Shown: piece by piece, positions 3,083-18,626 of the stretch
Numbering within the stretch: position 1 is the stretch's first letter
How the letters are laid out: each line of letters starts with the position of its first letter
Assembly: GCA_028717645.1 (NCBI GenBank)
Contig: JAQUNK010000014.1
Coordinates: 1-35,865, forward strand
Direction of reading: 5' to 3'
Length of the DNA: 35,865 nucleotides
Source of the DNA: Candidatus Omnitrophota bacterium
GTDB lineage: Bacteria > Omnitrophota > Gorgyraeia > Gygaellales > JAMWDD01
Made by a program: the position numbers and the translations under genes
The notes under the pieces: generated by a model
The model's input: the letters and a program-made list of their open reading frames with translations, nothing else
Databases searched by the model: none
What the model was told of the DNA's origin: nothing

Positions 3083-3299
3083 GATTTTATCGAAGAGGAT
3101 CTGGATGCAACTGACAGAAAAGGGTTGCTTAGGCTTCTTTTTGACTATATAGTTATTAGTGATGGTAAAATAAAAGAGTTTGAGCTTTATGAACCTTTTA
3201 AGAGTCTGTATGAAAGAAAGGGTATAAAATGGCAACTCAAAGAAAATCAACGGGTTCTGGAAAAACCGGCCTGCGTTTCTACATACGCACATTCGGATG
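3083..3299 (+). repeat. Direct repeat copy 1: LSR 3' end plus miaB 5' end (left att-type junction)
   Basis: Near-identical to 18402-18618, including 'atggcaactcaaagaaaatcaacgggttctggaaaaaccggcctgcgt' and 'tacatacgcacattcggatg'. Confidence 0.95.
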
Positions 3300-3358
3300 A
3301 ACGTTGGCGTAAGTATCGAGAGATGATTTTGGGCATTCTGAAGAGATTAAGTGATTGT
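3298..3358 (+). repeat. Element left arm, copy 1
   Basis: 61 bp 'tgaacgttggcgtaagtatcgagagatgattttgggcattctgaagagattaagtgattgt', repeated at 8637-8697 with one mismatch. Confidence 0.95.
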
Positions 3359-3374
3359 GATAAAAAGGATTAGG

Positions 3375-4424
3375 ATGAAATTGCTTACTTATCAGGAAGT
3401 TGTCGATTCGCTAAACAAGAAAAAAAGGACAAAACATCTTTTGTTGGGTAACGGCTTTAGCATGTCTTATGATAAGAAGATATTCTCTTACAATGCTCTA
3501 AGCGATTTTGTGACTAAGACTAAGGATGAATTACTGCACAAGCTTTTCAGCATTATTGACACGGCTAATTTTGAGACAGTTATGCGAGAGCTTGACCTTT
3601 TTTATAAACTTGCCTCTGAATTTTCTGAAGATAAGAAATTAGCAAGAAAAATCAATAAGGCACGAGATTCTTTAAAAAAGAATATGGTGGATGCCATAAC
3701 CGAGTTACACCCAGAGCATGTTTTTAAGATACCTGCAAAATCAAGCAGTAAGTGCGCAGAGTTTTTGAAAAGTTATCTTGATTCTAATGGGCATGTTTTT
3801 TCTACTAATTATGATTTGTTGTTGTATTGGGTTCTTATGCGAAACCAAGGCCAAATTACAAACATAGTTGATGGTTTCGGTAAAGAATATATCTCAAAAG
3901 ATTCAGACGAATACGATCCAGATTATGAGCCAGAGTTTGGTGATTTAGAATGGGGTCCAAACCAAGCTGATCAGCATGTGCACTATGTGCATGGGGCTTT
4001 GCATATTTTCGACGAAGGAGTATCGATAATTAAAGAAATATATGACGAGAACTGTTTATTAGAAAATATAAAAAAGAGGATAAATAATAAAGAATATCCG
4101 GTTTTTGTAACAGCTGGTGATGGTAAGCAGAAACTTGCCCATATTTTGCATAATCAATATTTAGAGTATTGTTATAAGACGCTATCCGGCATTACTGGCT
4201 CTTTGGTCGTATTTGGGTTTGGGTTTGGAAAATATGATGAACATATTATCGATGCTATTAATAACGCGGCTAAAGGAAAAAAAGTAGATAAATTTGATAA
4301 GCTTTGGAGCATATACATTGGGATATATTCTAAGGATGATGAAAAACATGTAAATTCGATACTTGGAAAATTTAAATGCAAGAAAGTTCACTTATTTGAT
4401 TCAAAGACAGTTAATATTTGGTGA
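3375..4424 (+). CDS. DUF4917 / SIR2-like domain protein (putative defence component)
   Basis: 'HLLLGNGFSMSYD', 'FSTNYDLLLYW', 'HYVHGALHIF', 'GSLVVFGFGFGKYDEHI', a Rossmann SIR2-like pattern. The ATG at 3375 (after aaggat) is more likely than the tracked GTG at 3351, which lies inside the repeat arm. Confidence 0.65.
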   Translation: MKLLTYQEVVDSLNKKKRTKHLLLGNGFSMSYDKKIFSYNALSDFVTKTKDELLHKLFSIIDTANFETVMRELDLFYKLASEFSEDKKLARKINKARDSLKKNMVDAITELHPEHVFKIPAKSSSKCAEFLKSYLDSNGHVFSTNYDLLLYWVLMRNQGQITNIVDGFGKEYISKDSDEYDPDYEPEFGDLEWGPNQADQHVHYVHGALHIFDEGVSIIKEIYDENCLLENIKKRINNKEYPVFVTAGDGKQKLAHILHNQYLEYCYKTLSGITGSLVVFGFGFGKYDEHIIDAINNAAKGKKVDKFDKLWSIYIGIYSKDDEKHVNSILGKFKCKKVHLFDSKTVNIW

Positions 4425-4485
4425 TAGTGGTTAGAATTTAAATTGTGTCAGAATGCAGAAATTAAGTTATTAATGAGGTAAATGT

Positions 4486-5304
4486 ATGCCTTGGTCATCG
4501 CGACATCTTAAATGGCTTGTTGATACTGGGGAGCGGCTTAAAACTATCGATGGAAAGATTGTTGAAATTTGGGAGCTCCGACACAAGAAAGATGATGAGC
4601 TTTTATCGTTGTGGGCAAGACATTTTAGAAATCACTATTGTCGCGATGCCGAGATTGATTTCTTAAGAAATGGGACTGGTTATTCTCGGAAAGAGTATCT
4701 GGAAAGAATTAAATTCCCCGACGTAGCAGCTGCTCCTGGGCCTAGCATCAGGTCGGGTGATTTTGGGGAGATCCTTGTTGCCGATTATCTTCAATATCTG
4801 CTTGGTTATTGGGTTCCTCGTAGTCGTTATGCGAATAAGGCGGTTCGCAATGAATCAACCAAGGGGTGTGATATTATCGGCTTTAAATTTCTAAATAATG
4901 GTAAAGATGAAAATGACGATATAATGGCTATCTTTGAATCTAAAGCACAATTTTCTGGTACGAGAGCTACTCCTCGATTACAACTTGCCGTAGATGGATC
5001 CGCAAAAGATCTTGTAAGAAAAGCAGAGTCTTTAAATGCTATTAAACAAGATCTTTTTAATCATGGCTTGTTGGTAGATGCAAAAAAAGTGGAAAGATTC
5101 CAGAATTTAGAAGATCGTCCTTATCATGAAGTCTATGGAGCTGTTGCATTATTTTCTACTGAGGTTTTTGATAAAACTGAAATAGCCAAAACTAAAACAA
5201 AAACGCATCCTTTTTCTAAAGAACTTTTTTTGATTGTCATTCGTGGCGATACCATGATGTACCTTGTTCATGAGCTCTACAGGAGAGCAGCAGATGAAGC
5301 CTGA
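4486..5304 (+). CDS. HamA-like (DUF1837-like) PD-(D/E)XK nuclease
   Basis: 'SGDFGEILVADYLQYLLG', 'GCDIIGFKF', 'MAIFESKAQF' fit an E...D...ExK nuclease core; overlaps the downstream helicase gene. Confidence 0.55.
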   Translation: MPWSSRHLKWLVDTGERLKTIDGKIVEIWELRHKKDDELLSLWARHFRNHYCRDAEIDFLRNGTGYSRKEYLERIKFPDVAAAPGPSIRSGDFGEILVADYLQYLLGYWVPRSRYANKAVRNESTKGCDIIGFKFLNNGKDENDDIMAIFESKAQFSGTRATPRLQLAVDGSAKDLVRKAESLNAIKQDLFNHGLLVDAKKVERFQNLEDRPYHEVYGAVALFSTEVFDKTEIAKTKTKTHPFSKELFLIVIRGDTMMYLVHELYRRAADEA

Positions 5305-8300
5305 ACAAAGATCGAAAAATTTACTGGGTATTACTCGGTCGCAAGCAAAAATGTATGAATATAGCGTCCCTTCCCAGTACCATATTGCAATATCACGTGA
5401 TCCAGCGCGGCTTTTTCCTTTAACTATAGGTTTAATTGGTGATTTTGCTTCACAAATTTGTTCAAAAAGTAAGGATGAAGGATTGTTCATTGAATCACAG
5501 AATCATCTTAATTTTGCTGCCTATTTTTTCGATGCATACCTCGAATCAAAACTAAATCGATATTTAGATCCATACACTGGAGTTATGAGCTCAGCAGCCT
5601 ATTATTTATGTGATTTACCTGGTAGTTCTCACGTTTTAGCTAAACGTATTGATACAGAAGCGTTAGATCTGGATTGTCAGGGCTTAGAACGACTCATGGC
5701 ATGGTTATTGAAAGGAGATTTTACTGCCACTCTCGATAGACTAGACGGAGTGTATGGTGAATATATCAATGAGTTTTCTTCTAGCCTTATTGGTTACTAT
5801 GTAAACGGATCTGGAGAACAGCGTTGCCATGCTGCATTTGAAGGATTGAGAACGTATGTGTATAATAGCGGAACCCCTAGACAGCTTCTTTTCGCAGATA
5901 TCCTCTGTGCTTTGGGGAAGAAGCGCTTAGTTAATTCGACTTGGTATTGTCTTCCTAGATATTCAGGCCTTTCGCTTCCCGAGTGGCTGCCGATACTACA
6001 AAAGAAAGATTTCATAAAAGAATTGTGGCCAGCTCAGCATCTTCTCGGTGCTCAAGGGGTTTTCCAAGGTAAATCTGCTGTGGTTCAAATGCCGACAAGT
6101 GCGGGCAAAACGCGGGCTACGGAAATAATTATTCGCAGCGCCTTTCTTTCTAAGAGGACGGTCTTAACAGTGATAGTGGCTCCGTTTAAAGCCCTATGTC
6201 ATGAAATTAGAGATAATCTTGGTGAGGCATTTCGTGATGAGTCAGTTGATATTAATGAGCTTTCCGATGTTCTGCAAACAGATTTTGAGATAGATATTGC
6301 GTCGAAAAGGAATGAAATTCTAGTCATAACTCCGGAAAAACTTCTTTATGTGCTTAGACATATTCCTGAGCTAGCGAAGAAAATCGGCCTTTTGATTTAT
6401 GATGAAGGGCATCAATTTGATAGTCCGACACGCGGGGTAACATATGAATTGCTTCTTACATCGTTGAAAACACTAGTTTCAGATTCTGTTCAAACGGTTT
6501 TAATATCAGCTGTTATTAGTAACGCCGAATCTATTAACAATTGGCTTAATGGTGGAGATGCGCAAATAGTCTCGGGAACAAACCTAAATCCGACATATCG
6601 CACGTTGGCATTTACGAGCTGGCTAGATCAATTGGGGCGCCTAGACTTTGTTTCTCCAGAAAATCCAGAACAGCTAGATTTTTTTGTGCCTAGGGTAATT
6701 GAACAGTTTGATCTTAACCTTAGGCATAGGGAAAGAAAGCGGCGTAAATTTCCCGAAAAGGAGGATGGTCGTTCAGTCGCATTATACTTAGGGCTTAAAT
6801 TAATGCAAAATGGTAGTGTTGCAATCTTTTGCGGGACTAAAGCCACTGCTGCTGGATTTTGTGAGAAAATTATTGAAGCATACGACAGAGGATTATCTTT
6901 AAGAAGTCCAGATGGTTTTTCCGATCCGGGTGAGTTGCGTCGTCTCTGTTTCTTATATGAACGCAGCCTAGGGCCAGAATCCCCGGCTACTTTAAGTGCA
7001 AAGCTAGGGGTTTTTACTCATCACGGGAACACTCCGCACGGTATTAGACTTGCAGTGGAATATGCCATGAAAGAAGGATTGATACGGTTTGTAGTCTGTA
7101 CTTCGACTTTGGCGCAGGGAGTTAATCTTCCTATCCGATATCTTATCGTTGCAAGCATTTATCAGGGAGTGGACAGGATTAAAGTACGTGATTTTCATAA
7201 TTTAATAGGTCGTGCGGGTCGTTCAGGGATGCATACCGAAGGGAGCATAATTTTTGCCGATCATGAAGTTTATGATAAGAGGTATTCTAGAGACGATAAA
7301 TGGAAGTGGGTACAAGTCAGGAATCTTTTAGAACCAAAAAATTCTGAACCATGCGTGAGTACATTGCTATCTATTTTCGAACCCTTACGTAGTGATGATG
7401 AAAGATATACTATTCGAATGGAGCCACTTGATTTTGCCAAAACATACGTTGATAATCCGTCTGAATTAAATGATTTACCTGTGCAGTTTGCTAAAGAGCA
7501 TGCTGATAAAGGATTCTCGCAAGAAGGATTAGAAAGGCAGATTAAGGGGAAGATTCATATTATTGCTGCAATTGAAAGTTACTTAATGGCGCACTGGGAT
7601 GAGTCCGGGTCGAATATATCACAAGATAACATTGATGTATTGGCACGAGGGACGTTAGCCTATTATTTATCAGATGAAGAAAATCGCAATCGTTTAATAG
7701 AATTATTTCGACTTCTTGCAATAAATATCGAAAAGAAAGTAACAGATGCGGTGAGACGTAAAGTATTTGGGATTACTTTGTACGGTATTTCAGATTCGCT
7801 TATGATTGAGGCATGGGTTAATGAAAACATTGAACAGCTCATAGCAGCTGAGAGCCATGAGCAGCTTCTCGAAGTTTTATGGCCCGTACTAGTACAGCAT
7901 ATTCAGAATTTAACATTTAGAAGGTGCGATAAAGCCCAGGCTTTAAAAGAGCTTGCTTTCCAATGGATCCAAGGAGTGCCGTTTTGCGAATTATTTAAGA
8001 TTTTAACAGAAGCCAATTGCAAAATTGGGCATGGGAAGCGCCCACGTAATCCGCAAATAGAGTATGTAGTTGATATCTGCGAGAATGCGTTGTCGTATGA
8101 TGGGATGCTATTAGTTGGAGCTATAACTGAATTCTGTAAATTAATTCACTCAGAAAAGGAAGATTTAATAGAGAATCTTCAGTGGTTGCAGAAAAGACTT
8201 AAATATGGTTTATCGTCTCCAGCAGCAATTTCGTTATATGAATTGGGCTTTGCTGATCAAGTTATAGCAACCGATTTAAGTAGTGTGATAGGTACTGCTT

Positions 8301-8419
8301 TTTCGCGAAGAGAGGCAATCAAGGAAATTAGGAAAAATGAGGATAAAGTGCGAGAGTTGCTTAACAACTATCCGAGATACTTTAATCAATTGTTAAATAA
8401 TCTGCTGTTGGAAATATAG
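5294..8419 (+). CDS. HamB-like / Ski2-like SF2 helicase
   Basis: Walker A 'MPTSAGKT', 'LLIYDEGH' box, 'STLAQGVNLPIRYLIV', 'NLIGRAGRSG'. Start chosen at ATG 5294 (aggagagcagcagATG), overlapping the nuclease stop; the track starts at 5264. Confidence 0.75.
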   Translation: MKPEQRSKNLLGITRSQAKMYEYSVPSQYHIAISRDPARLFPLTIGLIGDFASQICSKSKDEGLFIESQNHLNFAAYFFDAYLESKLNRYLDPYTGVMSSAAYYLCDLPGSSHVLAKRIDTEALDLDCQGLERLMAWLLKGDFTATLDRLDGVYGEYINEFSSSLIGYYVNGSGEQRCHAAFEGLRTYVYNSGTPRQLLFADILCALGKKRLVNSTWYCLPRYSGLSLPEWLPILQKKDFIKELWPAQHLLGAQGVFQGKSAVVQMPTSAGKTRATEIIIRSAFLSKRTVLTVIVAPFKALCHEIRDNLGEAFRDESVDINELSDVLQTDFEIDIASKRNEILVITPEKLLYVLRHIPELAKKIGLLIYDEGHQFDSPTRGVTYELLLTSLKTLVSDSVQTVLISAVISNAESINNWLNGGDAQIVSGTNLNPTYRTLAFTSWLDQLGRLDFVSPENPEQLDFFVPRVIEQFDLNLRHRERKRRKFPEKEDGRSVALYLGLKLMQNGSVAIFCGTKATAAGFCEKIIEAYDRGLSLRSPDGFSDPGELRRLCFLYERSLGPESPATLSAKLGVFTHHGNTPHGIRLAVEYAMKEGLIRFVVCTSTLAQGVNLPIRYLIVASIYQGVDRIKVRDFHNLIGRAGRSGMHTEGSIIFADHEVYDKRYSRDDKWKWVQVRNLLEPKNSEPCVSTLLSIFEPLRSDDERYTIRMEPLDFAKTYVDNPSELNDLPVQFAKEHADKGFSQEGLERQIKGKIHIIAAIESYLMAHWDESGSNISQDNIDVLARGTLAYYLSDEENRNRLIELFRLLAINIEKKVTDAVRRKVFGITLYGISDSLMIEAWVNENIEQLIAAESHEQLLEVLWPVLVQHIQNLTFRRCDKAQALKELAFQWIQGVPFCELFKILTEANCKIGHGKRPRNPQIEYVVDICENALSYDGMLLVGAITEFCKLIHSEKEDLIENLQWLQKRLKYGLSSPAAISLYELGFADQVIATDLSSVIGTAFSRREAIKEIRKNEDKVRELLNNYPRYFNQLLNNLLLEI

Positions 8420-8585
8420 AAGGTAAATTCCAGCATGTTTTAGTGGAATAATTACGAGTTTTCTTGGGACGGTAATTATGGAATGGCTTCATTCGGGAGT
8501 GGAACCGATGAACGTACGTGACATTTCAGGCCTTTTTTGACCGAAATCTGCGACATTACGTGATGCTAAAAATATATATAACACT

Positions 8586-8639
8586 ATGATTAATAAAGAG
8601 ATAACAAAAAAGAAAGTTTTTCTCCGCACCTTCGGTTGA
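8586..8639 (+). pseudogene. Truncated miaB 5' end of divergent sequence (MINKEITKKKVFLRTFG*)
   Basis: ATG at 8586, in-frame TGA at 8637-8639 at the crossover point; the peptide ends in RTFG, matching RTFG-CQMN of the resident MiaB, with different codons and upstream sequence. Confidence 0.7.
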
Positions 8640-8697
8640 ACGTTGGCGTAAGTATCGAGAGATGATTTTGGGCATTTTGAAGAGATTAAGTGATTGT
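8637..8697 (+). repeat. Element left arm, copy 2 (internal att-like junction)
   Basis: 60 of 61 bp identical to 3298-3358. Confidence 0.95.
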
Positions 8698-8724
8698 AAA
8701 TAGGTCTTAGAAAATAAATAATAG

Positions 8725-9261
8725 ATGAGAAGAACGCAGAGATATATAAAGAAATTACGCCTCAAGGTTACAGAAGCTAGATCAAAAGGCCATACTTATG
8801 AGGCTATACGCAAGAAATATGGTTGTTCTCCTGCTACGATTTCAAAATGGAGCAAAGGGATACAGCCATACAGATATTGCGTAAACTGCGGGGAAATAAA
8901 TTCTGAAAAACTCGAACAGTATCATCCGGATAAAACAAATAAACCAGATTATATCGTAACGTTATGTTCAAACTGTCGTTTAGCTATTTCCAGTCACCAA
9001 TTTAGAGAAAAAATAGAAGAATCGAAGGGCATTCTTAAACAAATCCAACTAATTTTACCTCTTCAAGCCGAATCTAAGTCTCAAATACTCCCAATTTCAT
9101 TAAATCCCCAAATTACTAGAGAGCTTAGCAAGGGGGCGTTATCTTTAGCTGCTGTTTCTTTGAGCGTAGGAGCGCTTTTAGATAAAGAAGTTCCCTTCTC
9201 TATAAGGATTTTGGCCAGCCTAGCCGCAGTCCAGTCTTTTAAGAAAGCCATAAATCTATAA
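8725..9261 (+). CDS. HTH protein with CxxC...CxxC zinc-finger-like segment and hydrophobic C-terminus
   Basis: 'SKGHTYEAIRKKYGCSPATISKWSKG' HTH; 'CVNCGEINSEKLEQYHPDKTNKPDYIVTLCSNC' HNH/Zn-like; C-terminal 'ALSLAAVSLSVGALLDKEVPFSIRILASLAAV'. Confidence 0.5.
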   Translation: MRRTQRYIKKLRLKVTEARSKGHTYEAIRKKYGCSPATISKWSKGIQPYRYCVNCGEINSEKLEQYHPDKTNKPDYIVTLCSNCRLAISSHQFREKIEESKGILKQIQLILPLQAESKSQILPISLNPQITRELSKGALSLAAVSLSVGALLDKEVPFSIRILASLAAVQSFKKAINL

Positions 9262-9406
9262 CTTACCTAATTTTTTTAAAAGATCATTGCTTCATTTTTA
9301 CTACATTTAACACTACAAATAGTAGTATAAATTGTAATATAGTTTCATTTTAGCTATTTTTAAATTTGCTTAAATTATTAGAGATAAATCACCAATTAGG
9401 AAAAAC

Positions 9407-9435
9407 TTGACACAATACAGAATATAGTATATACT
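9407..9435 (+). promoter_or_regulatory. Putative strong sigma70 promoter of the CBASS-like operon (TTGACA-17-TATACT)
   Basis: TTGACA 9407-9412, 17-bp spacer, TATACT 9430-9435. Confidence 0.75.
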
Positions 9436-9441
9436 TTGTAA

Positions 9442-9548
9442 TAAGATACAACTAACAGTGGTGAGTTTGGAGAGGGAACCTCCACGGTAAAAAAGTAAAA
9501 TCTCCACGAGCCTAATGCTCCTGCATTTTTGTGCTTGTGGAGTTTTTT
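9442..9548 (+). ncRNA. Structured leader RNA / candidate attenuator or short ncRNA
   Basis: Lies between the promoter and an intrinsic terminator. Hairpin TGGAG(9468-9472)/CTCCA(9480-9484); two copies of CTCCAC (9480-9485, 9502-9507) can compete for GTGGAG (9537-9542). Confidence 0.55.
9502..9548 (+). terminator. Intrinsic terminator upstream of the patatin gene
   Basis: CTCCACGAGC (9502-9511) pairs with GCTTGTGGAG (9533-9542, one G-U), inner hairpin AATGC/GCATT, then TTTTTT 9543-9548. Confidence 0.8.
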
Positions 9549-9567
9549 ATATTTATAGGTAAAAAAT

Positions 9568-10494
9568 ATGCCTACGGGAGAAATATTCAGAATTTTGGCA
9601 ATCGATGGTGGAGGATACCGCGGTGTTTATGCCGCTTATATATTAAAACGTATTGAGGAAGAATATGGTGTTGACTGGTTGAAGAAAATTAATCTAATAG
9701 CCGGAACTAGTACAGGAGCAATTATTGCGGCAGCATTAGCCTGCAATGTGCCTGCGAGCAAAATATTAGATTTTTATAAGAAATATGGTCAACGGATTTT
9801 TAAGAAGCGATTTCTTCATTGGTTAGGATTATTTGCGAGCAGATACGACAATAAGGAATTAGAAAATATCTTAAAAGATCTCTATGGCGATGAGCGAAAA
9901 TTAGGCCAAATTGACATACCTTTAGTTTTGCCTGCATCTGATATTAGGAATGGCTGCGTCCACGTACTTAAATCTTCGTACGATAAAGAATTTTATCGTG
10001 ATAAAAATAGACTAGTATATAAAGCAGTATTAGCTTCTTGTTCTGCTCCTACTTATTTTGACCCTTATGATATGGATAATTATCTTTTAGCAGATGGAGG
10101 ATTATGGGCGAATAATCCAGCTCTTATTGCTGCTATTGAAGCTAAGCGCCGCCTTAGCCAGAATATGGATAATTTAATGATTCTATCAATTGGCACAGGC
10201 GAAGGGAGAAAATTCTATTCGCAGGATGGACATTGGTGGAAAAAATTTTTGGGATGGGGATTTTTGACAAGGTGGGGAAGGCAAAAATTCATCGAGATGC
10301 TTTTCAGCCTACAGTCTCAAACAACTAATAATATGATTGGACTTTTATTTGAACCAAGTCAGATATTGAGGATTAATTTTAAATCGGATAAAACTTTAAA
10401 ATTAGATGATCCCAATGAGTATAACGATTTAATTTGTTTAGCTGATAAAGACTTTACATATAATTCACAAAGAATCCAAGAATTCTTGGATTAG
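9568..10494 (+). CDS. capV: Patatin-like phospholipase, CapV-type CBASS effector
   Basis: 'AIDGGGYRGVYAAYIL', 'GTSTGAIIAA' (GxSxG), 'ADGGLWANNP' (catalytic Asp); directly followed by a CD-NTase gene. Confidence 0.85.
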   Translation: MPTGEIFRILAIDGGGYRGVYAAYILKRIEEEYGVDWLKKINLIAGTSTGAIIAAALACNVPASKILDFYKKYGQRIFKKRFLHWLGLFASRYDNKELENILKDLYGDERKLGQIDIPLVLPASDIRNGCVHVLKSSYDKEFYRDKNRLVYKAVLASCSAPTYFDPYDMDNYLLADGGLWANNPALIAAIEAKRRLSQNMDNLMILSIGTGEGRKFYSQDGHWWKKFLGWGFLTRWGRQKFIEMLFSLQSQTTNNMIGLLFEPSQILRINFKSDKTLKLDDPNEYNDLICLADKDFTYNSQRIQEFLD

Positions 10495-10511
10495 AGTATA
10501 GGAGGTCAGAA

Positions 10512-11714
10512 ATGATACAAGATGATCGTATGGTATTATTGGATGATGTATTAGAGAAATATGTCGATTCCTTAAAAATTTCCGATTCTCAGTTTGAAGA
10601 AGCAAGGCTTCGATACGAATCGGTAGGAAAATGGTTACGAGAAAGCTCTGCATTAAAGGATCGGAGACCTGAAATATATACGCAAGGGTCTTTTCTTTTT
10701 GGTACGGTAGTGAGACCTTTAACAGAAGAAGATAGGTATGATATTGATTTAGTATGCCGTTTAAACTATCTTAAAAATGAAATTTCGCAGAAGGATTTAA
10801 AAGAAAAATTTGGTAAGGAATTGACTGATTACGCTCTTGCTAAGCAAATGAAGAGCAATCCTAAGAAAAAAAGACGCTGTTGGACGATAGAATATGAAGA
10901 TGATATCCATTTCCATATGGATTTTTTACCTTCTATTCCAGATCAAGATATGCGCTACAGAAAATATTTGTTGGAATCGGGCGTGAGAGAAGCTTTAACA
11001 CAGACAAGTATTTGTATTACTGATGATACATTGGATAATTATAGCCGTATTGACGATGATTGGTTAAAAACTAATCCTAAGGGGTATGCGGAGTGGTTTA
11101 AGTCCAGAATGAGACTTATTTTCGAGAAGGGAGCTGTATCTCTTCTTGAAAAACGTCTATATGCTTCAGTAGAAGCTATTCCTGTTCATAAAATTAGAAC
11201 ACCTCTGCAAAAGACTATTCAGCTTCTTAAGCGGCATCGTGACATTATGTTTGAGAATGAGCCTAAGAAAAAGCCAATTTCGATGATTATAACCACTTTA
11301 GCAGCGCATGCCTATCAGAATGAAGCAAGATTGATTGATGCATTGAAGCGTGTAGTAGATGATATGGATAAATATATTGAGAAAGATGGGGCTACTAAAA
11401 CGGTTATAAGAAATCCAGTTATGCCTGATGAAAACTTTGCAGATAAATGGGTAGAGGATCCTGCGCTTGAGAAAAATTTTTATGATTGGTTAGGGAAAAT
11501 CAGGAAAGATTTACAGGAGCTTATGACGAAGACATCATCTAGAGATATGATTGAATATCTGGGTATTCCGCTTGGCAGCAAAGTTATGGGGAAAGTCCTC
11601 GAGAAATATGGTTATGGTGCCGATATCCAGAGGGCCACGCCTGTAAAATCTTATCCTGAGGTTAAAATTAATCCTTCACAACCATGGAGTAGCAATGGCA
11701 GGTGTTGGTTATGA
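10512..11714 (+). CDS. CD-NTase (SMODS/DncV-like nucleotidyltransferase)
   Basis: 'YTQGSFLFGTVVRPLTEEDRYDIDLVCRL' (GSF...DxD) and third acidic residue in 'FHMDFLPSI'. Confidence 0.85.
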   Translation: MIQDDRMVLLDDVLEKYVDSLKISDSQFEEARLRYESVGKWLRESSALKDRRPEIYTQGSFLFGTVVRPLTEEDRYDIDLVCRLNYLKNEISQKDLKEKFGKELTDYALAKQMKSNPKKKRRCWTIEYEDDIHFHMDFLPSIPDQDMRYRKYLLESGVREALTQTSICITDDTLDNYSRIDDDWLKTNPKGYAEWFKSRMRLIFEKGAVSLLEKRLYASVEAIPVHKIRTPLQKTIQLLKRHRDIMFENEPKKKPISMIITTLAAHAYQNEARLIDALKRVVDDMDKYIEKDGATKTVIRNPVMPDENFADKWVEDPALEKNFYDWLGKIRKDLQELMTKTSSRDMIEYLGIPLGSKVMGKVLEKYGYGADIQRATPVKSYPEVKINPSQPWSSNGRCWL

Positions 11715-12345
11715 TGAGCTTATTCAGAAGCAGTTTCAAGAGCTGCATGTTAAATATCCAAGCTTAAGTCTTAAGCAGATTGATAATAACTATTATCTTA
11801 TTGGTTTCTTAGGTTTTTCCTCAGAATTCAATGGGGTAAGAATTCAAGACGGGTTCGAGTTATTTATTACGATCCCATGTGAGTATCCAAATCGAATGCC
11901 CGCCATTAAAGAAATAGGCGGACGAATACCAATAGATTTTCATCATAGTGGAGACGAATTATGTTTAGGTACACCGGTAGATAATTGGATAAAATTTTGT
12001 AAACGTAAAACTCTTATGGGATTTATTGAACTTTTAGTGATTCCATTTCTTTTCTCATTTTGTTTTAGGGAAAAAACAGGTCGTATGCCGTTTGGTCAGC
12101 GTTCGCATTATGGAAGAGGAATTATGGAATTCTATTGTGAATTGTTTAAAATAAAAGATTTTATTGCCGCTCAGAAGTTTCTTAAAATATTAGCCTCTGG
12201 AGAATATAGTCAAGACAAGAGATGCCCATGTAATTCGGGAAGAAGACTTAAAAAATGTCACGGATCAATGATTCTTGAAGCCATGAACACGGTTCCGTTA
12301 GAATACTTTCAATATGAGTACAAGCAAAGTTTATCTCCAGGATAG
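11695..12345 (+). CDS. E2-like conjugating enzyme domain with C-terminal SEC-C motif (short type II CBASS accessory)
   Basis: 'PCEYPNRMPAIKEIGGRIPIDFHHSGDELCLGTPVD' resembles the E2 H-x-N...CL active-site region; 'KRCPCNSGRRLKKCHGS' is SEC-C; overlaps the CD-NTase stop by 20 bp. Confidence 0.75.
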   Translation: MAGVGYDELIQKQFQELHVKYPSLSLKQIDNNYYLIGFLGFSSEFNGVRIQDGFELFITIPCEYPNRMPAIKEIGGRIPIDFHHSGDELCLGTPVDNWIKFCKRKTLMGFIELLVIPFLFSFCFREKTGRMPFGQRSHYGRGIMEFYCELFKIKDFIAAQKFLKILASGEYSQDKRCPCNSGRRLKKCHGSMILEAMNTVPLEYFQYEYKQSLSPG

Positions 12346-12378
12346 GCCGTAGTATTACAATTGTACAAAGGAGAGGTT

Positions 12379-13014
12379 ATGAAACGAATAATTTTTGCCA
12401 TCCATGGTATCAGAAGCCCAAAGCAAGGGAACTGGATATATGATTTTACTAATTTCACTGAACAAGACCCGAGGTTTAAAGATGATATTTTCGTGCCTTA
12501 TTATTATGGGTTTGTTTTAGCTACCGTATCTGTCTTTCCGGTTTTTAAATATGAGAAAGTTAAAGAAGTTAAAACAGTATTAAGAAAAATAATTAATGAT
12601 AACCCTAATTGTGAGCTTAATATAGTAGCGCATAGTTATGGCACTGAACTAAGCTTTTGGGCAATAAAAACTAGCGGTGAAGATGGAAAGCCGCCTATAA
12701 TTGCGAATAAAGTCATACTTGTCTCTAGCGTTGTATCTCGTTTTAATGAAATTCCATATAATTCTACTTTAAGAGCAGGAAAAATAAAACAGTTACATTG
12801 TTATTGTAGCTATAAAGATAAAGTATGTAATTTTGCTCCTTTTGGACATTCAGGATGTTTTGGTTTCTCAAGAGATAGATATGATACTAGGTGTTATCCA
12901 AAGCCATTCGATGACTTAGAAATTTACAATCATCAAGTCGAAAGCTTGGGACATTCTGCTTATTTCGAAGATGTTAAATACTTCAAGGAATGGTTAGGCA
13001 TAATAGCGAGTTAG
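12379..13014 (+). CDS. Alpha/beta hydrolase (lipase/esterase-like)
   Basis: 'IFAIHGIRSPKQGNW', nucleophile elbow 'NIVAHSYGTELSFW', late His in 'SLGHSAYF'. ATG 12379 follows aaaggagagg. Confidence 0.65.
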   Translation: MKRIIFAIHGIRSPKQGNWIYDFTNFTEQDPRFKDDIFVPYYYGFVLATVSVFPVFKYEKVKEVKTVLRKIINDNPNCELNIVAHSYGTELSFWAIKTSGEDGKPPIIANKVILVSSVVSRFNEIPYNSTLRAGKIKQLHCYCSYKDKVCNFAPFGHSGCFGFSRDRYDTRCYPKPFDDLEIYNHQVESLGHSAYFEDVKYFKEWLGIIAS

Positions 13015-13021
13015 ACAGATA

Positions 13022-13228
13022 ATGTCATACTCTAAAGAGCTTATCCAGAAAACATTAGATTATTGGGGACCCAAGTATGCTTTGATTGGCCAGAATCTAA
13101 CGGCGGAAGATGCAAGGGAAATATTAGATAATCTATGCGGATTAATTGAATATTTGGCAGAATTAGACAAGAAGTTTAATCAAAGTATTAAAAACGAGGT
13201 ATTAGATGGCTTAATGCAACAGGAATAG
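13022..13228 (+). CDS. Small conserved-looking protein of unknown function (mobile-element type)
   Basis: 68 aa 'TLDYWGPKYALIGQNLTAEDAREILDNLCGLIEYL'; starts 7 bp after the hydrolase stop. Confidence 0.5.
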   Translation: MSYSKELIQKTLDYWGPKYALIGQNLTAEDAREILDNLCGLIEYLAELDKKFNQSIKNEVLDGLMQQE

Positions 13229-13336
13229 TGGTAAGCCATGAACTTATCCTATCTGCGCTATTTTGAAAAGCACAATTATATACTTGACAGGATCAAATGA
13301 ATATGATAAAAATAAGCCAAGAACTTAAATTAACCG

Positions 13337-13600
13337 TTGAAGGAGTCCATGTCTAGATTTAGAAGCGAAGTGCCCAAGGGCCTATTTAGAGTACCGATAT
13401 CCATTACAAAAGAAATGGAATCTTGGCTTCAGGATTTAAGCAGCAAGATGAAGTCTTCGGGCGGCTATAAATTGCCTAAATCTTACATCATAAGGGCGCT
13501 GCTAGATGCAGCTATGAGCCTTAAAATTGATGTATCTCAAGTGAAAACAGAAGAGGAGCTGGTAGAGAGGATCCTTAAAGCGATAAAGCAGTATAAATAA
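13337..13600 (+). CDS. Small putative RHH/CopG-like DNA-binding protein, paralogue 1
   Basis: 'VPISITKEMESWLQDLSSKMKSSGGYKLPKSYIIRALLDAAMSLKIDVSQVKTEEELVERIL', alignable by eye to the next ORF. The ATG at 13349 (ATGTCTAGA, after aaggag) is the more likely start. Confidence 0.5.
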   Translation: MKESMSRFRSEVPKGLFRVPISITKEMESWLQDLSSKMKSSGGYKLPKSYIIRALLDAAMSLKIDVSQVKTEEELVERILKAIKQYK

Positions 13601-13606
13601 TAATTA

Positions 13607-13633
13607 TATTTTTTTTAACATTGAAAGGCACAA
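13607..13633 (+). repeat. Upstream repeat 'TTTTTTTAACATTGAAAGGCACAA', copy 1
   Basis: Repeated at 13884-13907; degenerate copy 'ATTTTGAAAAGCACAATTATATAC' at 13260-13283. Confidence 0.8.
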
Positions 13634-13655
13634 TTGAACAATACGAGGAGAAGAT

Positions 13656-13883
13656 ATGTTTAAGAAAGTCTGGACTAGTGTAAATCTGAGTAAGAAAGAG
13701 ATATGTTTTCTTGATGAGATATCTAAAAACTGTAAGTTCTCCGGAGGAAGAAAATTACGTAGAACTTCTATACTTAGAGCATTGTTGGTCGCAGGCAAGA
13801 GGTTAAATATTGATGTAAACAGAGTCAAAAGCGAGAAGGAGCTTAAAGAAAGAGTACTGGTATCTTTTAAGAAGCTGAATTAA
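13656..13883 (+). CDS. Small putative RHH/CopG-like DNA-binding protein, paralogue 2
   Basis: 'FSGGRKLRRTSILRALLVAGKRLNIDVNRVKSEKELKERVL'; RBS gaggag. Confidence 0.5.
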   Translation: MFKKVWTSVNLSKKEICFLDEISKNCKFSGGRKLRRTSILRALLVAGKRLNIDVNRVKSEKELKERVLVSFKKLN

Positions 13884-13907
13884 TTTTTTTAACATTGAAA
13901 GGCACAA
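13884..13907 (+). repeat. Upstream repeat 'TTTTTTTAACATTGAAAGGCACAA', copy 2
   Basis: Same sequence as near 13610-13633; lies just upstream of the methyltransferase gene. Confidence 0.8.
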
Positions 13908-13931
13908 AACAACATTACAAATACTGCTAAT

Positions 13932-15164
13932 ATGAATAAGTTAATCTGCGGAGATAATTTAGAGGAATTGAAAAAGATTGAAAAGGAAAGCGTTGATCTT
14001 ATTTACATTGACCCGCCATTTTTTTCAAATAAACAATATGAAGTAGTATGGAGGGATGAAGCAGAAATACGGAGTTTTGAAGATAGATGGGAAGGCGGGA
14101 TAGAGCATTATATCGGGTGGATGAAGCCAAGAGTAGAGGCGATGTATGAAGTTTTAAAACCCACTGGCTCATTTTATCTGCATTGTAATTGGTATGCAAA
14201 TGCTCATTTAAGGATAATGCTGGATGAGATATTTGGAGAAAGCAATTTTCAAAATGAAATAATCTGGGATTATGGGGCAAGGGCAACAGTTAGAAAGTCG
14301 GGTTTTCCCAGAAAACATGATACCATCCTTTTCTATGCTAAAAGTAAAAATTATACCTTTAATCTTTTGTATAAACCTTATAAAGACCCTTTGATGGAAA
14401 GATATAACAAAATAGATTCTAAGGGAAAGCGGTACGCCTTAATAAAAAGAAAAAGAACTGATGGTACTATATATTACGGTAAATGTTATCCAAAAGAAGG
14501 AGCTCCAGAAACCGATGTCTGGAATATTTCTTTAATGGCTTCTACTTCTAGAGAGCGATTGGGATACCCCACTCAAAAACCAGAAGCATTATTAGAAAAG
14601 ATAATAAAAGCATCTTCAAATAGAAATGATACGGTTTTAGACGCTTTTTGCGGTTGTGGTACTGCTTTAGCTGCGGCACAAAAATTAGGGAGGCAATGGA
14701 TAGGAATAGATATATCCCCGACCGCTATAAAACTAATAGAGCGGAGATTAAATCAATTAGGGACAAAGAAAGACACAGACTATATAGTTGCAGGAACACC
14801 TACTACTGTAAAAGATTTGTTAAAATTGAAGCCATTTGAATTTCAGAATTGGGTTATTGATGCATTAGGAGCAAAGCATAGCCGAAAGAAAATCGGGGAT
14901 ATGGGGCTGGATGGTCATTTTGATAAAGATATTTTTCATAAAGATGCTGGTATTCAAGTCAAGCAATCCGAAGATATTGGAAGGAATGTAATTGATAATT
15001 TTAAGTCTGCCCTTGAAAGGGCAAAATATAAAGAAGGCATTGTTGTAGCTTTTAGTTTTGGCAAAGGTGCGTGTGAAGAAGTGGCGAGGCTTAAAAACTC
15101 TGGAGAGATAGATATTAAATTAATAACGGTAGAAGATTTACTACATAAGAAAGTAAAGCTATGA
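13932..15164 (+). CDS. Beta-class DNA methyltransferase fused to an Mrr-like PD-(D/E)XK domain
   Basis: Motif IV 'DLIYIDPPF' precedes motif I 'VLDAFCGCGTALAAA'; C-terminal 'KPFEFQNWVIDALGA...MGLDGHF...AGIQVKQSEDIGRNVIDNF' Mrr-like. Confidence 0.75.
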   Translation: MNKLICGDNLEELKKIEKESVDLIYIDPPFFSNKQYEVVWRDEAEIRSFEDRWEGGIEHYIGWMKPRVEAMYEVLKPTGSFYLHCNWYANAHLRIMLDEIFGESNFQNEIIWDYGARATVRKSGFPRKHDTILFYAKSKNYTFNLLYKPYKDPLMERYNKIDSKGKRYALIKRKRTDGTIYYGKCYPKEGAPETDVWNISLMASTSRERLGYPTQKPEALLEKIIKASSNRNDTVLDAFCGCGTALAAAQKLGRQWIGIDISPTAIKLIERRLNQLGTKKDTDYIVAGTPTTVKDLLKLKPFEFQNWVIDALGAKHSRKKIGDMGLDGHFDKDIFHKDAGIQVKQSEDIGRNVIDNFKSALERAKYKEGIVVAFSFGKGACEEVARLKNSGEIDIKLITVEDLLHKKVKL

Positions 15165-15616
15165 TGCTAAAATGCAAGGGAACTCAATTTTTAATTTATA
15201 AAGAGGGAATAAAATCTATTTTACTTTTTTTGGGAGGCAGTAAAATTTTTTTCTTTCCAGTTTTTCATAAATGTCCTTTTTATCGCAAGCCCTTTTTGAG
15301 AAGGATTATAACTGAGTTTATAGTGAGTACGGGTATAATTATGACAGTTATAAGATTCTATTTAGCTTATAGAATGAAAAATGAAATTTTGGCTGATCTA
15401 TTTTTTGCGGGTATGGTTGTAATTAGTATAGAATTTAGACGAGTAATAAGTAGAATCGAAGAGAAGTATTATGAAGTTCTCATTCCCCTAACTAAAAATC
15501 CCCACTATCCTGAGTTAAAAGATTTAATACAGGCCTTCAACGGCCTTACCAAATCTTCGCTCGAAGAGGTTCTCAATCCTTCCGCGGAAGAACGTATTAA
15601 AGCAATAAGAGGGTGA
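15161..15616 (+). CDS. Hypothetical membrane protein
   Basis: Overlaps the MTase stop by 4 bp; TM-like 'IITEFIVSTGIIMTVIRFYLAY...LADLFFAGMVVISI'. Confidence 0.4.
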   Translation: MMLKCKGTQFLIYKEGIKSILLFLGGSKIFFFPVFHKCPFYRKPFLRRIITEFIVSTGIIMTVIRFYLAYRMKNEILADLFFAGMVVISIEFRRVISRIEEKYYEVLIPLTKNPHYPELKDLIQAFNGLTKSSLEEVLNPSAEERIKAIRG

Positions 15617-15731
15617 AATAGAAGGTAAAAGTAGTGAAGAATTTTATTCTTAATGCTATAATAAATAATAGTAGTTCAAAAATATCCAGCCTTATTTAGA
15701 CAAAAAGACTTAAAATCTAAAGGAGGGTGCG

Positions 15732-16073
15732 ATGGCCAAGTTAACTACAGAAGAGGCTATGCAAGACCTAAAACGCGTTGAGTTAGGACTATCATTCCTG
15801 CTAAGAAGATGCAAGAGAAGAGATGGCAAGGTATTCAAAGGGTTTATATCCTGCATTGACACATCAAATAAGGAATTACGGAGAATTTATGAAAATTGGG
15901 AATGGTGGAATGTAAAGAATCCTTTTTATTTTCCTATGCATCTTACGCCTCTACTTAAAATCTTAGATTGCGCTACGATTATATATACAGGACGAAAAGA
16001 TCATAAAGTCATTGAAGCGCTATTGGCAAAGTCAATATACCGGTTAGACGATATTATAGATAATTTAGGCTGA
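15732..16073 (+). CDS. Hypothetical protein
   Basis: 113 aa ORF with strong RBS (aaaggagggtgcgATG). Confidence 0.5.
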   Translation: MAKLTTEEAMQDLKRVELGLSFLLRRCKRRDGKVFKGFISCIDTSNKELRRIYENWEWWNVKNPFYFPMHLTPLLKILDCATIIYTGRKDHKVIEALLAKSIYRLDDIIDNLG

Positions 16074-16163
16074 AAAAATAACTATCTAAATCCGCAGTTT
16101 GATCAGTTATATAATTTCCCACCAATTTTAGACAATAACTTTTTAAATATGTCTACATTATAC

Positions 16164-16192
16164 TTGACAAATCTGTATTATTGTCGTATAAT
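16164..16192 (+). promoter_or_regulatory. Perfect-consensus sigma70 promoter (TTGACA-17-TATAAT)
   Basis: TTGACA 16164-16169, 17-bp spacer, TATAAT 16187-16192; next ATG at 16202. Confidence 0.85.
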
Positions 16193-16201
16193 TTATTTAA
16201 G

Positions 16202-16963
16202 ATGAAAGCGAGAGATCTTACTAACCAGAAGACTTTTTTAAGAGAATTGCTTGAATACCTTGATTGGACTCCGGCAAGGCTGGCGGGAGAACTTCGCGTT
16301 TCTGAAAAAAGTGTTATGCGCTGGTTGGGTGGCGAAGTAAGTCCTCATCCGCCGGTCTGGAAAGAGCTAGAGAATATCTTAAAGAAAATGCCGCTAGAAA
16401 AAAAAGTTAAAAAACGCCTTCAGGACATTAGCCTTCCATACATAGTTAATCCACATAAACTAACTGCTGAAGAGATATTTACTACTTTGGAGAAAGGGGA
16501 TATAGCCGACCAATTTAAGAAAAGGATTGAAAAGGAATTTCCTGATTTAGCTTCCGTCGATTTTAGAACTGCTTTTGCAGAATATGTGAGGCGAAAGTCT
16601 GGCGTAGCAGAAAGGATAGTTGCTGCGGAGATTGCGGAAGGGAAACAGCAATTTAAAATCCACTCAATAACAGGAAGTACTCGCCAAAGATTCCCAAAGA
16701 CAAGGAAAGTTAGCCTTCAGCAGCTAAATAAGCCACAGAAAATATTACATTCAGGGTCGAGCTCTAAACGTTCTGATTCGTCTTCCAAATCGAATTCTTC
16801 AGGTGGTAAAAGCGAAAATAAAAGTGCAGATGATGGCGGGGAAGGGGATGGTGAAGGCGCCCTGGATATACAGAGACAGAAGATTAGGCTGTATGCCTTA
16901 TTTGAAATTTTGCTCGAAGCAGACATGTTTCGCTTAAATAGGTTACTCCAAAAGAAAGATTGA
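16202..16963 (+). CDS. XRE-like HTH regulator with Ser/Gly-rich linker
   Basis: 'WTPARLAGELRVSEKSVMRWLGG' HTH; 'SGSSSKRSDSSSKSNSSGGKSENKSADDGGEGDGEG' linker; start moved from 16181 because that codon lies inside the promoter. Confidence 0.6.
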   Translation: MKARDLTNQKTFLRELLEYLDWTPARLAGELRVSEKSVMRWLGGEVSPHPPVWKELENILKKMPLEKKVKKRLQDISLPYIVNPHKLTAEEIFTTLEKGDIADQFKKRIEKEFPDLASVDFRTAFAEYVRRKSGVAERIVAAEIAEGKQQFKIHSITGSTRQRFPKTRKVSLQQLNKPQKILHSGSSSKRSDSSSKSNSSGGKSENKSADDGGEGDGEGALDIQRQKIRLYALFEILLEADMFRLNRLLQKKD

Positions 16964-16964
16964 T

Positions 16965-18626
16965 ATGAAAGCCGCAATTTATATAAGAGTAAGCACAGAA
17001 GATCAAGCACGAGAAGGCACTTCTCTTGAAGTGCAGCGGGAGTTTCTTGAAAGCTATGCCAAAAGAGAGAACTGGGAGATTTATTATCCTGAAAAGGATA
17101 ATATTTACAATGATGATGGCTATTCTGGTTATACCCTTGAAAGGCCCGCTCTATCTAGGTTACTTAAAGATGCGAAGCTTAAGAAATTTGATGTAGTCGT
17201 TGTTTACAAAATTGACAGGTTTGCGCGAAATAACCGTCTTTTGCTTAATCTTGTTGAAGAACTCAATAATGCAGGGATCGGGTTTAAATCTGCAACAGAG
17301 GCATTTGATACTGTAAGCGCCGCAGGAAAATTGGCCTTGAGCATGCTTGGCACTGTTGCGCAATTCGAAAGAGATAGAATTATCGAAAGAGTTTTTCCAG
17401 GCATGGTAAAAGGAGCGGAAAAGGGCAATTGGCAGGGCGCAAGATATTCTCCTTATGGCTACAGCTATAACAAATTTGATTCCGACAAGAAATTAAAAGT
17501 CGTTAAGGAAGAAGCTGATATTGTAAAACTGATATATACATTATATCTTTCTGGACAAAGCACTACTCAGATCGCAGGTTATCTCTATAAGAGAGAATAC
17601 AAGACAAGAAGCGGAGGTAAGTTTCATTCAAAACTTGTTTGTGATATTCTGAAAAATCCTATTTATACCGGAAAGATAATATGGAATCGCCATCATTATG
17701 ATAAAAAACAGAAGACTCTGAGGGGATATAAATACGTAAAGAATGATCCTTCGGAAGTTGTTTCTGGCATGGGTAAGCATGAGCCAATAATTAACGAAGC
17801 AGAATTTGAAGCAGTGCAAAAGAAGCTTGAAAATAACAGAAAAGGTATGATGGTAAGAAAAGGTAGTCAGGAATATCCGCTTACCGGTATTTTGATATGC
17901 GGAAACTGCGGGCATAAATTACAAGGTTGTCTAAGTATCGCGTCGAGAGAAAACAAGAAGACAAAAAGTAAGAGAAGGTATTACCGCTGTAGTGGAAGGG
18001 CAACACATTATGTTGACTGTCACGAGCCTTATATACAGTCGGAAAATATCGAAGAACAGATTTATGCGATTATTGACGTAGTATTGAATTATCCAGAACT
18101 TGATGAACGAAGAATAAGCAATCTCATAGAAATGGCAGCGACAACAAGAAATGATAATATCGAAGATGAGATAAAGATTATTGACGGAAAAATTAAAGAG
18201 AACGTTACGAAGCAGGAGAAACTTGGCAAGGCTTTTGCAGAGGATTCGATTGCTGAAGGTGCCTTCAAGAATCTCATTTTGCCCTTGAGGGATGAGCAGA
18301 AGTCTCTTGAAGGGAAGAAACAGAAGCTGAAATTAAATCTGATTAAACGGGAACGCTCGGGAGAATATCAAAAAATACTTAATATGGTTATTAATCATTT
18401 TGATTTTATCAAAGAGGACTTGGATGCAACTGGCAGAAAAGGGTTGCTTAGGCTTCTTTTTAACTATATAGTTATTAGTGATGGTAAAATAAAAGAGTTT
18501 GAGCTTTATGAACCTTTTAAGAGTCTATATGAAAGAAAGGGTATAAAATGGCAACTCAAAGAAAATCAACGGGTTCTGGAAAAACCGGCCTGCGTCTCTA
18601 CATACGCACATTCGGATGCCAAATGA
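16965..18626 (+). CDS. Large serine recombinase (integrase of the island)
   Basis: 'AAIYIRVSTEDQAREGTSLEVQREFLE', 'KIDRFARN', 'GTVAQFERDRIIERV', zinc ribbon 'CGNCGHKLQGC...YYRCSGR...C', coiled-coil region; 3' end overlaps the miaB 5' end by 79 bp. Confidence 0.9.
   Translation: MKAAIYIRVSTEDQAREGTSLEVQREFLESYAKRENWEIYYPEKDNIYNDDGYSGYTLERPALSRLLKDAKLKKFDVVVVYKIDRFARNNRLLLNLVEELNNAGIGFKSATEAFDTVSAAGKLALSMLGTVAQFERDRIIERVFPGMVKGAEKGNWQGARYSPYGYSYNKFDSDKKLKVVKEEADIVKLIYTLYLSGQSTTQIAGYLYKREYKTRSGGKFHSKLVCDILKNPIYTGKIIWNRHHYDKKQKTLRGYKYVKNDPSEVVSGMGKHEPIINEAEFEAVQKKLENNRKGMMVRKGSQEYPLTGILICGNCGHKLQGCLSIASRENKKTKSKRRYYRCSGRATHYVDCHEPYIQSENIEEQIYAIIDVVLNYPELDERRISNLIEMAATTRNDNIEDEIKIIDGKIKENVTKQEKLGKAFAEDSIAEGAFKNLILPLRDEQKSLEGKKQKLKLNLIKRERSGEYQKILNMVINHFDFIKEDLDATGRKGLLRLLFNYIVISDGKIKEFELYEPFKSLYERKGIKWQLKENQRVLEKPACVSTYAHSDAK
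18402..18618 (+). repeat. Direct repeat copy 2: LSR 3' end plus miaB 5' end (right att-type junction)
   Basis: Matches 3083-3299. Confidence 0.95.

Follow-up and report, generated by a model that had tools for sequence, protein, structure and literature searches.

How bacteria hold abortive defense systems in check while keeping them poised to act is still poorly understood, and the known solutions are DNA-binding repressors. For example, CapW/CapH-type repressors are DNA-binding proteins that control CBASS at the promoter. The leader studied here is alike in that a dangerous defense operon would be kept low until needed, but RNA folding in the element takes the place of a DNA-binding protein at the promoter.

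Among regulatory RNAs, the preQ1-I riboswitch forms an H-type pseudoknot with an A-rich L3, and its Bacillus subtilis type controls termination (PMC11625349). It shares with the present element a hairpin (P1), a pairing of the loop with a downstream strand (P2), the A-rich L3, a very small size, and a terminator platform (PMC11625349). However, the element has no Rfam match and no queuosine genes among its downstream families. The direction also differs: the ligand-bound fold of the B. subtilis preQ1-I riboswitch terminates transcription (OFF), whereas the pseudoknot of the element would destroy the terminator (ON). In the fluoride (crcB) and ZTP/pfl transcriptional ON riboswitches, a pseudoknotted aptamer likewise competes with a downstream intrinsic terminator (PMC11077080, PMC7337938). 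Their sequence and fold are different, and their targets are ion or purine/one-carbon genes, whereas those of the element are defense and DNA-repair genes. The HMP-PP (thiS) riboswitch has a terminator-embedded aptamer (PMC6478431) with a shared strand, as here, but its sequence, ligand, and genes are unrelated to the element.

AbiF RNA RCd22 and the type III toxin-antitoxin RNAs are structured RNAs that lie beside an anti-phage gene and control it (PMC12373285), an arrangement that the element resembles. They neutralize one toxin protein by binding, whereas the element precedes dozens of unrelated proteins and, unlike these RNAs, carries a switching strand within a terminator or a Shine-Dalgarno (SD) site. 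In addition, type III RNAs accompany one toxin family, usually as tandem repeats, whereas the proteins downstream of the element span 89 different Pfam families.

Here, the leader of a CBASS operon is compared with these systems. It very probably belongs to a class of cis-acting RNA switches, apparently undescribed so far, in which a pseudoknot competes with a terminator. In kind, the element would resemble transcriptional ON riboswitches built on an H-type pseudoknot, and its membership among the riboswitches is putative and unproven. The unusual part is the regulon, i.e., one shared RNA element over many unrelated anti-phage systems. When the window and eight loci were scanned against Rfam 15 at gathering score (4227 families, including preQ1, SAM, ZTP, fluoride, and AbiF), the element had no match, and sub-threshold scans of three members gave scattered chance matches alone. 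No such element was found described in the open-access literature searched.

The CBASS operon and its leader

The window, meaning the whole stretch of 35,865 nucleotides that was analyzed, contains a CD-NTase, an effector, and an E2-like protein side by side, the combination that defines a short type II CBASS. The features of the leader and the operon are as follows.

9407-9435, + strand: sigma70-type promoter TTGACA-17-TATACT, 11/12 match, near consensus (TTGACA 9407-9412, 17-nt spacer, TATACT 9430-9435); predicted start ~9442
9458-9465, + strand: predicted P1 5' strand, GTGGTG-A-G, with U9462 unpaired opposite U9481 and A9464 bulged (covariation in alignment A7)
9468-9473, + strand: predicted P2 5' strand in the P1 loop, TGGAGA, partner 9501-9506 (compensatory to CGAAGG/CCUUCG in relatives)
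9479-9485, + strand: predicted P1 3' strand, CCTCCAC, including the first CTCCAC
9486-9500, + strand: A-rich loop L3, GGTAAAAAAGTAAAA, conserved in A7; site of hairpin insertions in some relatives
9501-9506, + strand: predicted switching strand TCTCCA, both P2 3' strand and terminator 5' arm (CTCCA)
9502-9548, + strand: intrinsic terminator, CTCCACGAGC...GCTTGTGGAG-TTTTTT (sequence and folding)
9557-9570, + strand: likely ribosome-binding site (AGG) and patatin ATG, both past the terminator
9568-10494, + strand: patatin-like phospholipase, the CBASS effector (PF01734, 2.6e-29; PADLOC Effector/Phospholipase PDLC00758, 3.5e-90)
10512-11714, + strand: CD-NTase, an oligonucleotide cyclase (PF21654, PF18144; PDLC00770, 1.8e-132)
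11695-12345, + strand: E2-like protein of short type II CBASS (PDLC00871, 2.2e-86)
12361-13014, + strand: alpha/beta-hydrolase-like protein, probable last gene of the operon (PF05990, weak, 3.2e-4; spacing 15 nt)

The promoter is the top-scoring promoter-like site within 8500-14500, and the predicted transcription start lies about 15 nt before P1. The leader of ~105 nt folds at -33.4 kcal/mol (z = -3.35), beating 200 of 200 dinucleotide shuffles. Its terminator closes with the U-tract at 9543-9548, which leaves 20 nt to the patatin ATG at 9568. A simple terminator scan did not pick up this terminator, whose hairpin loop exceeds the length that the scan's pattern allows; the silence of that scan is uninformative, since it missed a real terminator. 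The initial annotation had placed the promoter, two CTCCAC segments (9480-9485 and 9502-9507), TGGAG at 9468-9472, GTGGAG at 9537-9542, and the patatin ATG, and every letter and coordinate of these is correct. A rival start downstream of the terminator has no sequence support, as the scan found no further promoter-like site on the + strand from the window promoter up to 10058.

Other defense genes surround the operon. A Hachiman system (HamA, PDLC00161, 8e-112; HamB, PDLC00188, E = 0) occupies 4486-8419, preceded by a PDC-S21 candidate with DUF4917. The Hachiman system itself has no copy of the RNA switch before it. Behind CBASS, at 13932-15164, a single protein joins an N6/N4 methyltransferase to an Mrr-like nuclease domain at its C terminus. 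The 3' end of a serine recombinase gene (16965-18626) recurs as direct repeats (217 nt, 97%; 73 nt, 96%) at 3083-3358, 8625-8697, and 18402-18618, where they bracket one module with the PDC-S21 candidate and Hachiman (3351-8419) and another with CBASS and the methyltransferase (~8700-18400). The pattern suggests that insertions occurred one after another at a single site, duplicating the recombinase 3' end. That end overlaps the start of a miaB-like gene (overlap 18548-18626; gene 18548-19711), so the integration site may be the miaB start.

The RNA family, its fold, and its platforms

When the leader was used as a BLAST query in 40 genomes of the order, a 46- to 50-nt core, GTGGTG.GTTYGAAGGGGGAACCTCCAC-A-rich-CCTTCG, was found in three genomes. 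Each of these homologues follows a sigma70 promoter, with a terminator next, and they precede cas3-like, MBL-fold, and DinD/BRO-like genes. Two other BLAST matches (L004 and L006) were set aside as a promoter-like stretch alone and an unrelated stretch, respectively. A covariance model built from the window leader and the three homologues (R1) had matches in 59 of the 128 genomes searched for the order and in 131 of 386 phylum-wide at E ≤ 1e-5. An aptamer-only model, with the terminator excluded (R2), matched 213 of the 386 genomes searched for the class with a cutoff of E ≤ 0.05, and most of these matches had far lower E values. The searches covered one phylum, from which all homologues come, and a blastn search of phage and plasmid records with the consensus element gave no match. 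Genomes carry up to about ten copies. About 140 copies were taken with their flanking DNA as the working set, from which three weak R1 matches without the full element (L037:2073 minus, L084:2831, and L066:802) were excluded. The window's own genome has two other copies, one before a DNA-repair-type radical SAM gene (G000:C11) and one before a gene of unknown function (G000:C19). The latter contig also bears an nhaA-I RNA (Rfam RF03057; L076 1402-1461, minus strand; 47.5 bits, above the gathering score).

The predicted fold shared by the copies is a hairpin, P1, whose loop pairs with the terminator 5' arm (P2) to give an H-type pseudoknot that excludes the terminator. As judged from the 126 aligned aptamer copies of A7, P1 is proven by covariation. 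In total, 99.7% of its cells are paired, and three pairs covary with 33 to 58 double-sided changes each (column pairs 4-32, C-G 67/G-C 58; 5-31, C-G 67/G-C 56; 7-29, G-C 92/A-U 33). The covariation score was reached by none of 500 shuffles and was lost when the partner was slid. The inner mismatch 6-30 tracks 7-29, being U.U or C.C with G-C and U-G with A-U.

For P2, 93.5% of cells are paired, and the little variation that exists is mostly compensatory. The window has U-A, G-C, G-C, A-U, G-C, and A-U where the majority has U/C-G, G-C, A-U, A-U, G-C, and G-C; its double changes are G-C for A-U at 16-56 and A-U for G-C at 19-53, plus U-A at 13-58. Further variants are CAAAGG/CCUUUG (L164), AGAGG/CCUUU (L157), and GAGG/CCUC (L161). 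Because the core letters AAGG/CCUU seldom vary, few sequences carry the covariation signal of P2. In ~13 of 136 copies, A-C or C-C stands at pair 15-57, so P2 does not depend on its outer end. In L163, L166, and L168-L179, whole hairpins are inserted between P1 and the A-rich strand, with AAAGUAAAACCUUCG kept, and the copy on G000:C11 also carries a long L3 insertion. Such insertions are expected if the loop crosses a groove and can bulge outward. A conserved 5' motif, CAATTAG/CAATTTG, is present in only about one-quarter of the copies.

The initial annotation had suggested conditional read-through by mutually exclusive folds. This idea was borne out for TGGAG(A) at 9468-9473 with (T)CTCCA at 9501-9506, a pairing that excludes the terminator and shows compensatory change in relatives. 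Covariation in homologous leaders, the proposed check, is strong and recurs across hundreds of genomes, which puts the element well outside what chance would give. Relatives do not preserve the pairings proposed for TGGAG with the first CTCCA or for GTGGAG with the first CTCCAC. The first CTCCAC is instead the P1 3' arm and pairs with GTGG at 9458-9461. In many relatives P1 is GUCC/GGAC and the terminator is CCUUCG/CGAAGG; because these sequences differ, the two CTCCAC copies are a coincidence of the window's P1 and P2 sequences.

P2 and the terminator are mutually exclusive, as the P2 3' strand is the terminator 5' arm. When the six-letter P2 strand was deleted, the median terminator energy changed from -15.1 to -3.3 kcal/mol, and that of the window from -21.5 to -9.3 kcal/mol. 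As in an attenuator, the shared strand is kept by compensation (UGGAGA/UCUCCA/(U)GGAG in the window vs CGAAGG/CCUUCG/CGAAGG in relatives). In L068, L082, L102, L122, and L193, a copy with a terminator is followed 17 to 20 nt on by a second aptamer without one. In these five second copies, CCUUCUUU pairs with AAAGGAGG 4 to 6 nt before the start codon, and the CCUUC strand masks the SD site. The genes behind these five pairs encode small membrane or secreted proteins of unassigned function. Tandem copies with terminators also occur (L041, L042, L049, L050, and L075).

One aptamer on interchangeable transcription and translation platforms is a hallmark of riboswitches. The predicted aptamer is modular, given a terminator platform in most copies, SD masking in five, and one switching strand; the same aptamer would serve transcription or translation control, with CCUUC always the strand that switches. 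As in riboswitches, the conserved structured aptamer lies in the 5' leaders of diverse genes, and its fold excludes an expression platform that is interchangeable. Since formation of the pseudoknot would break the terminator or free the SD site, we infer that the pseudoknot is the ON state in the cell.

The placement of the copies was also consistent. A promoter with at least 9/12 matches lies upstream in 86% of 136 relatives (28% of shuffles), and one with at least 10/12 in 69% (4% of shuffles). The -10 end is typically 16 to 26 nt before P1, and the element begins ~10 to 13 nt after the sigma70 start site; from this spacing, the switch sits near the extreme 5' end of the transcript. A gene on the same strand comes next in 129 of 137 copies (median distance, 39 nt; half within ~40 nt), which argues for cis control.

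Genes behind the element

In a Pfam search of 113 first downstream genes, N6/N4 methylases (15), D12 methylases (10), and C5 methylases (6) were found, a sum of up to 31 of 113 with possible double counting of a few proteins. The search also gave RadC-type proteins (6), Cas3 (~5), SIMPL (5), ORF6N (4), Bro-N (3), and DpnI (2). NCBIfam added DNA modification/repair radical SAM proteins (TIGR03916; 5 to 6), PcrA/UvrD, and a DinG/YoaA-like helicase, and it labels one downstream protein an anti-phage 6A-MBL enzyme. A UmuD-like gene was read by eye in L126, and other copies read in the same way precede a C5 methyltransferase, a toxin-antitoxin-like pair, and an Abi_2-like gene, the last of these followed by a possible restriction subunit of large size. 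The operon partners include the restriction enzymes NgoFVII, AlwI, and EcoO109I, Cas5d, Csd1, Vsr, and two DncV-like CD-NTases. One of these CD-NTases belongs to a second CBASS (L055), with a TIR protein, a SAVED-HNH effector, and a cyclase. The initial annotation had read the leader as a mode of CBASS control; this was too narrow, as CBASS lies downstream of only two sampled copies, but its suggestion of conditional read-through stands.

As a control, the immediate upstream neighbors of these copies were examined (114 genes). No DNA methylase family was among their top 25 families, and their largest family groups, LexA/S24 being one such group, had three members. In L078, L086, and L118, the gene next to the switch on its upstream side is LexA-like, a possible link to SOS. 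Within the order, the element is found at only 2 of 15 C5 and 2 of 30 N6/N4 methylase loci. RadC was rejected as a target family, as none of 30 housekeeping RadC loci of the order carries the element; with so few such loci carrying it, methylase and RadC genes are not accompanied by the element as a rule. The RadC genes behind the element are mostly long (326 to 605 amino acids) and resemble RadC-methyltransferase fusions. Some targets have no evident defense or repair role, namely SIMPL/DUF541 (5 of 113), small membrane proteins, a permease, and TPR proteins. The SIMPL/DUF541 membrane protein, of ~249 amino acids, follows the copies L044, L047, L059, L020, and L015.

Proposed mechanism and alternatives

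Starting from the features established by sequence comparison (P1, P2, the exclusion between P2 and the terminator, promoter placement, the SD-masking platform, and the defense/repair gene context), the leader would work as follows. After transcription starts, the nascent RNA would fold P1 (9458-9465 with 9479-9485), and the loop letters TGGAGA would pair with TCTCCA (9501-9506) across the A-rich strand to form the H-type pseudoknot. When a signal stabilizes the pseudoknot, the terminator would be blocked and the polymerase would read through into the CBASS operon (ON). When the signal is absent, the terminator would displace P2, and only the ~105-nt RNA would be made (OFF). That a signal stabilizes the pseudoknot is inferred from this scheme. 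The mix of defense and DNA-repair targets suggests a signal of infection, foreign DNA, or DNA damage. As the putative signal, a small molecule is favored over a protein, which would make the element a riboswitch. The CBASS cyclic nucleotide is unlikely as the ligand because nearly all copies control non-CBASS genes. The broadest reading, put forward tentatively and at somewhat less than even chances, is a putative phylum-wide riboswitch in which one small molecule of infection or DNA damage turns on CBASS, restriction-modification, CRISPR-Cas, and Abi systems together with DNA repair.

LicT/BglG and PyrR are proteins that act in a similar manner on their own RNAs. A dedicated RNA-binding protein, made or activated on infection or DNA damage, might likewise hold the pseudoknot, and this is the main alternative, although a rather unlikely one. 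A short conserved RNA overlapping a terminator suits proteins equally well, and scattered targets suit a global regulator. However, no common regulator gene adjoins the copies, and the targets are mostly single defense operons; the SD-masking version and the densely conserved unpaired loop letters are typical of ligand pockets, yet compatible with a protein. Sensing of S-adenosylmethionine or its product, which would tie methyltransferase expression to methyl supply, is very unlikely. About one-third of the first genes use SAM (DNA methyltransferases and radical SAM proteins), but Cas3, CBASS, BRO, ORF6N, UvrD, DinG, and UmuD do not, and the inferred ON direction is opposite to that of the usual SAM switches. 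The SAM-II riboswitch is an H-type pseudoknot. So is SAM-V (PMC6061858), and the element shares this form with both. The resemblance to SAM-II was not upheld by the Rfam scans, in which no SAM riboswitch family appeared even at E < 10 for three members.

A mobile promoter-terminator cassette that gives acquired genes low constitutive expression, with no sensing involved, would explain why copies bring their own promoter and often precede horizontally moving genes. It is quite unlikely, as P1, P2, and the loop letters are kept phylum-wide with compensation, which a plain weak terminator does not need, and one copy precedes the DNA-repair-like radical SAM gene in the window's own genome. The initial annotation had also raised a small RNA. 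The ~105-nt terminated RNA would exist, a strong terminator would end a stable structured RNA, and several copies per genome are found, but a trans-acting product with an incidental downstream gene is highly improbable: the next gene is close and on the same strand in nearly all copies, the bias in gene type is absent upstream, and five copies mask the SD site of the next gene. Ribosome-mediated attenuation through a leader peptide has an almost negligible probability. A GTG at 9458 in the window opens a 10-codon frame ending at TAA 9488; among the relatives, however, the length of the P1 hairpin is spread over all three frames (52/40/34), and the leaders contain no conserved open reading frame, an ATG frame of at least four codons being present in only 24 of 137.

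If one RNA element governs many unrelated operons for defense and DNA repair, these operons would answer a shared signal within reach of RNA, and the identity of this signal would reveal what these bacteria measure under attack. If the tentative phylum-wide reading is true, the element would serve immunity as an RNA-based counterpart of SOS. Although the organism may never have been cultured, purified polymerase would suffice to test the element in vitro. The element also points to uncharacterized genes that probably belong to this response.
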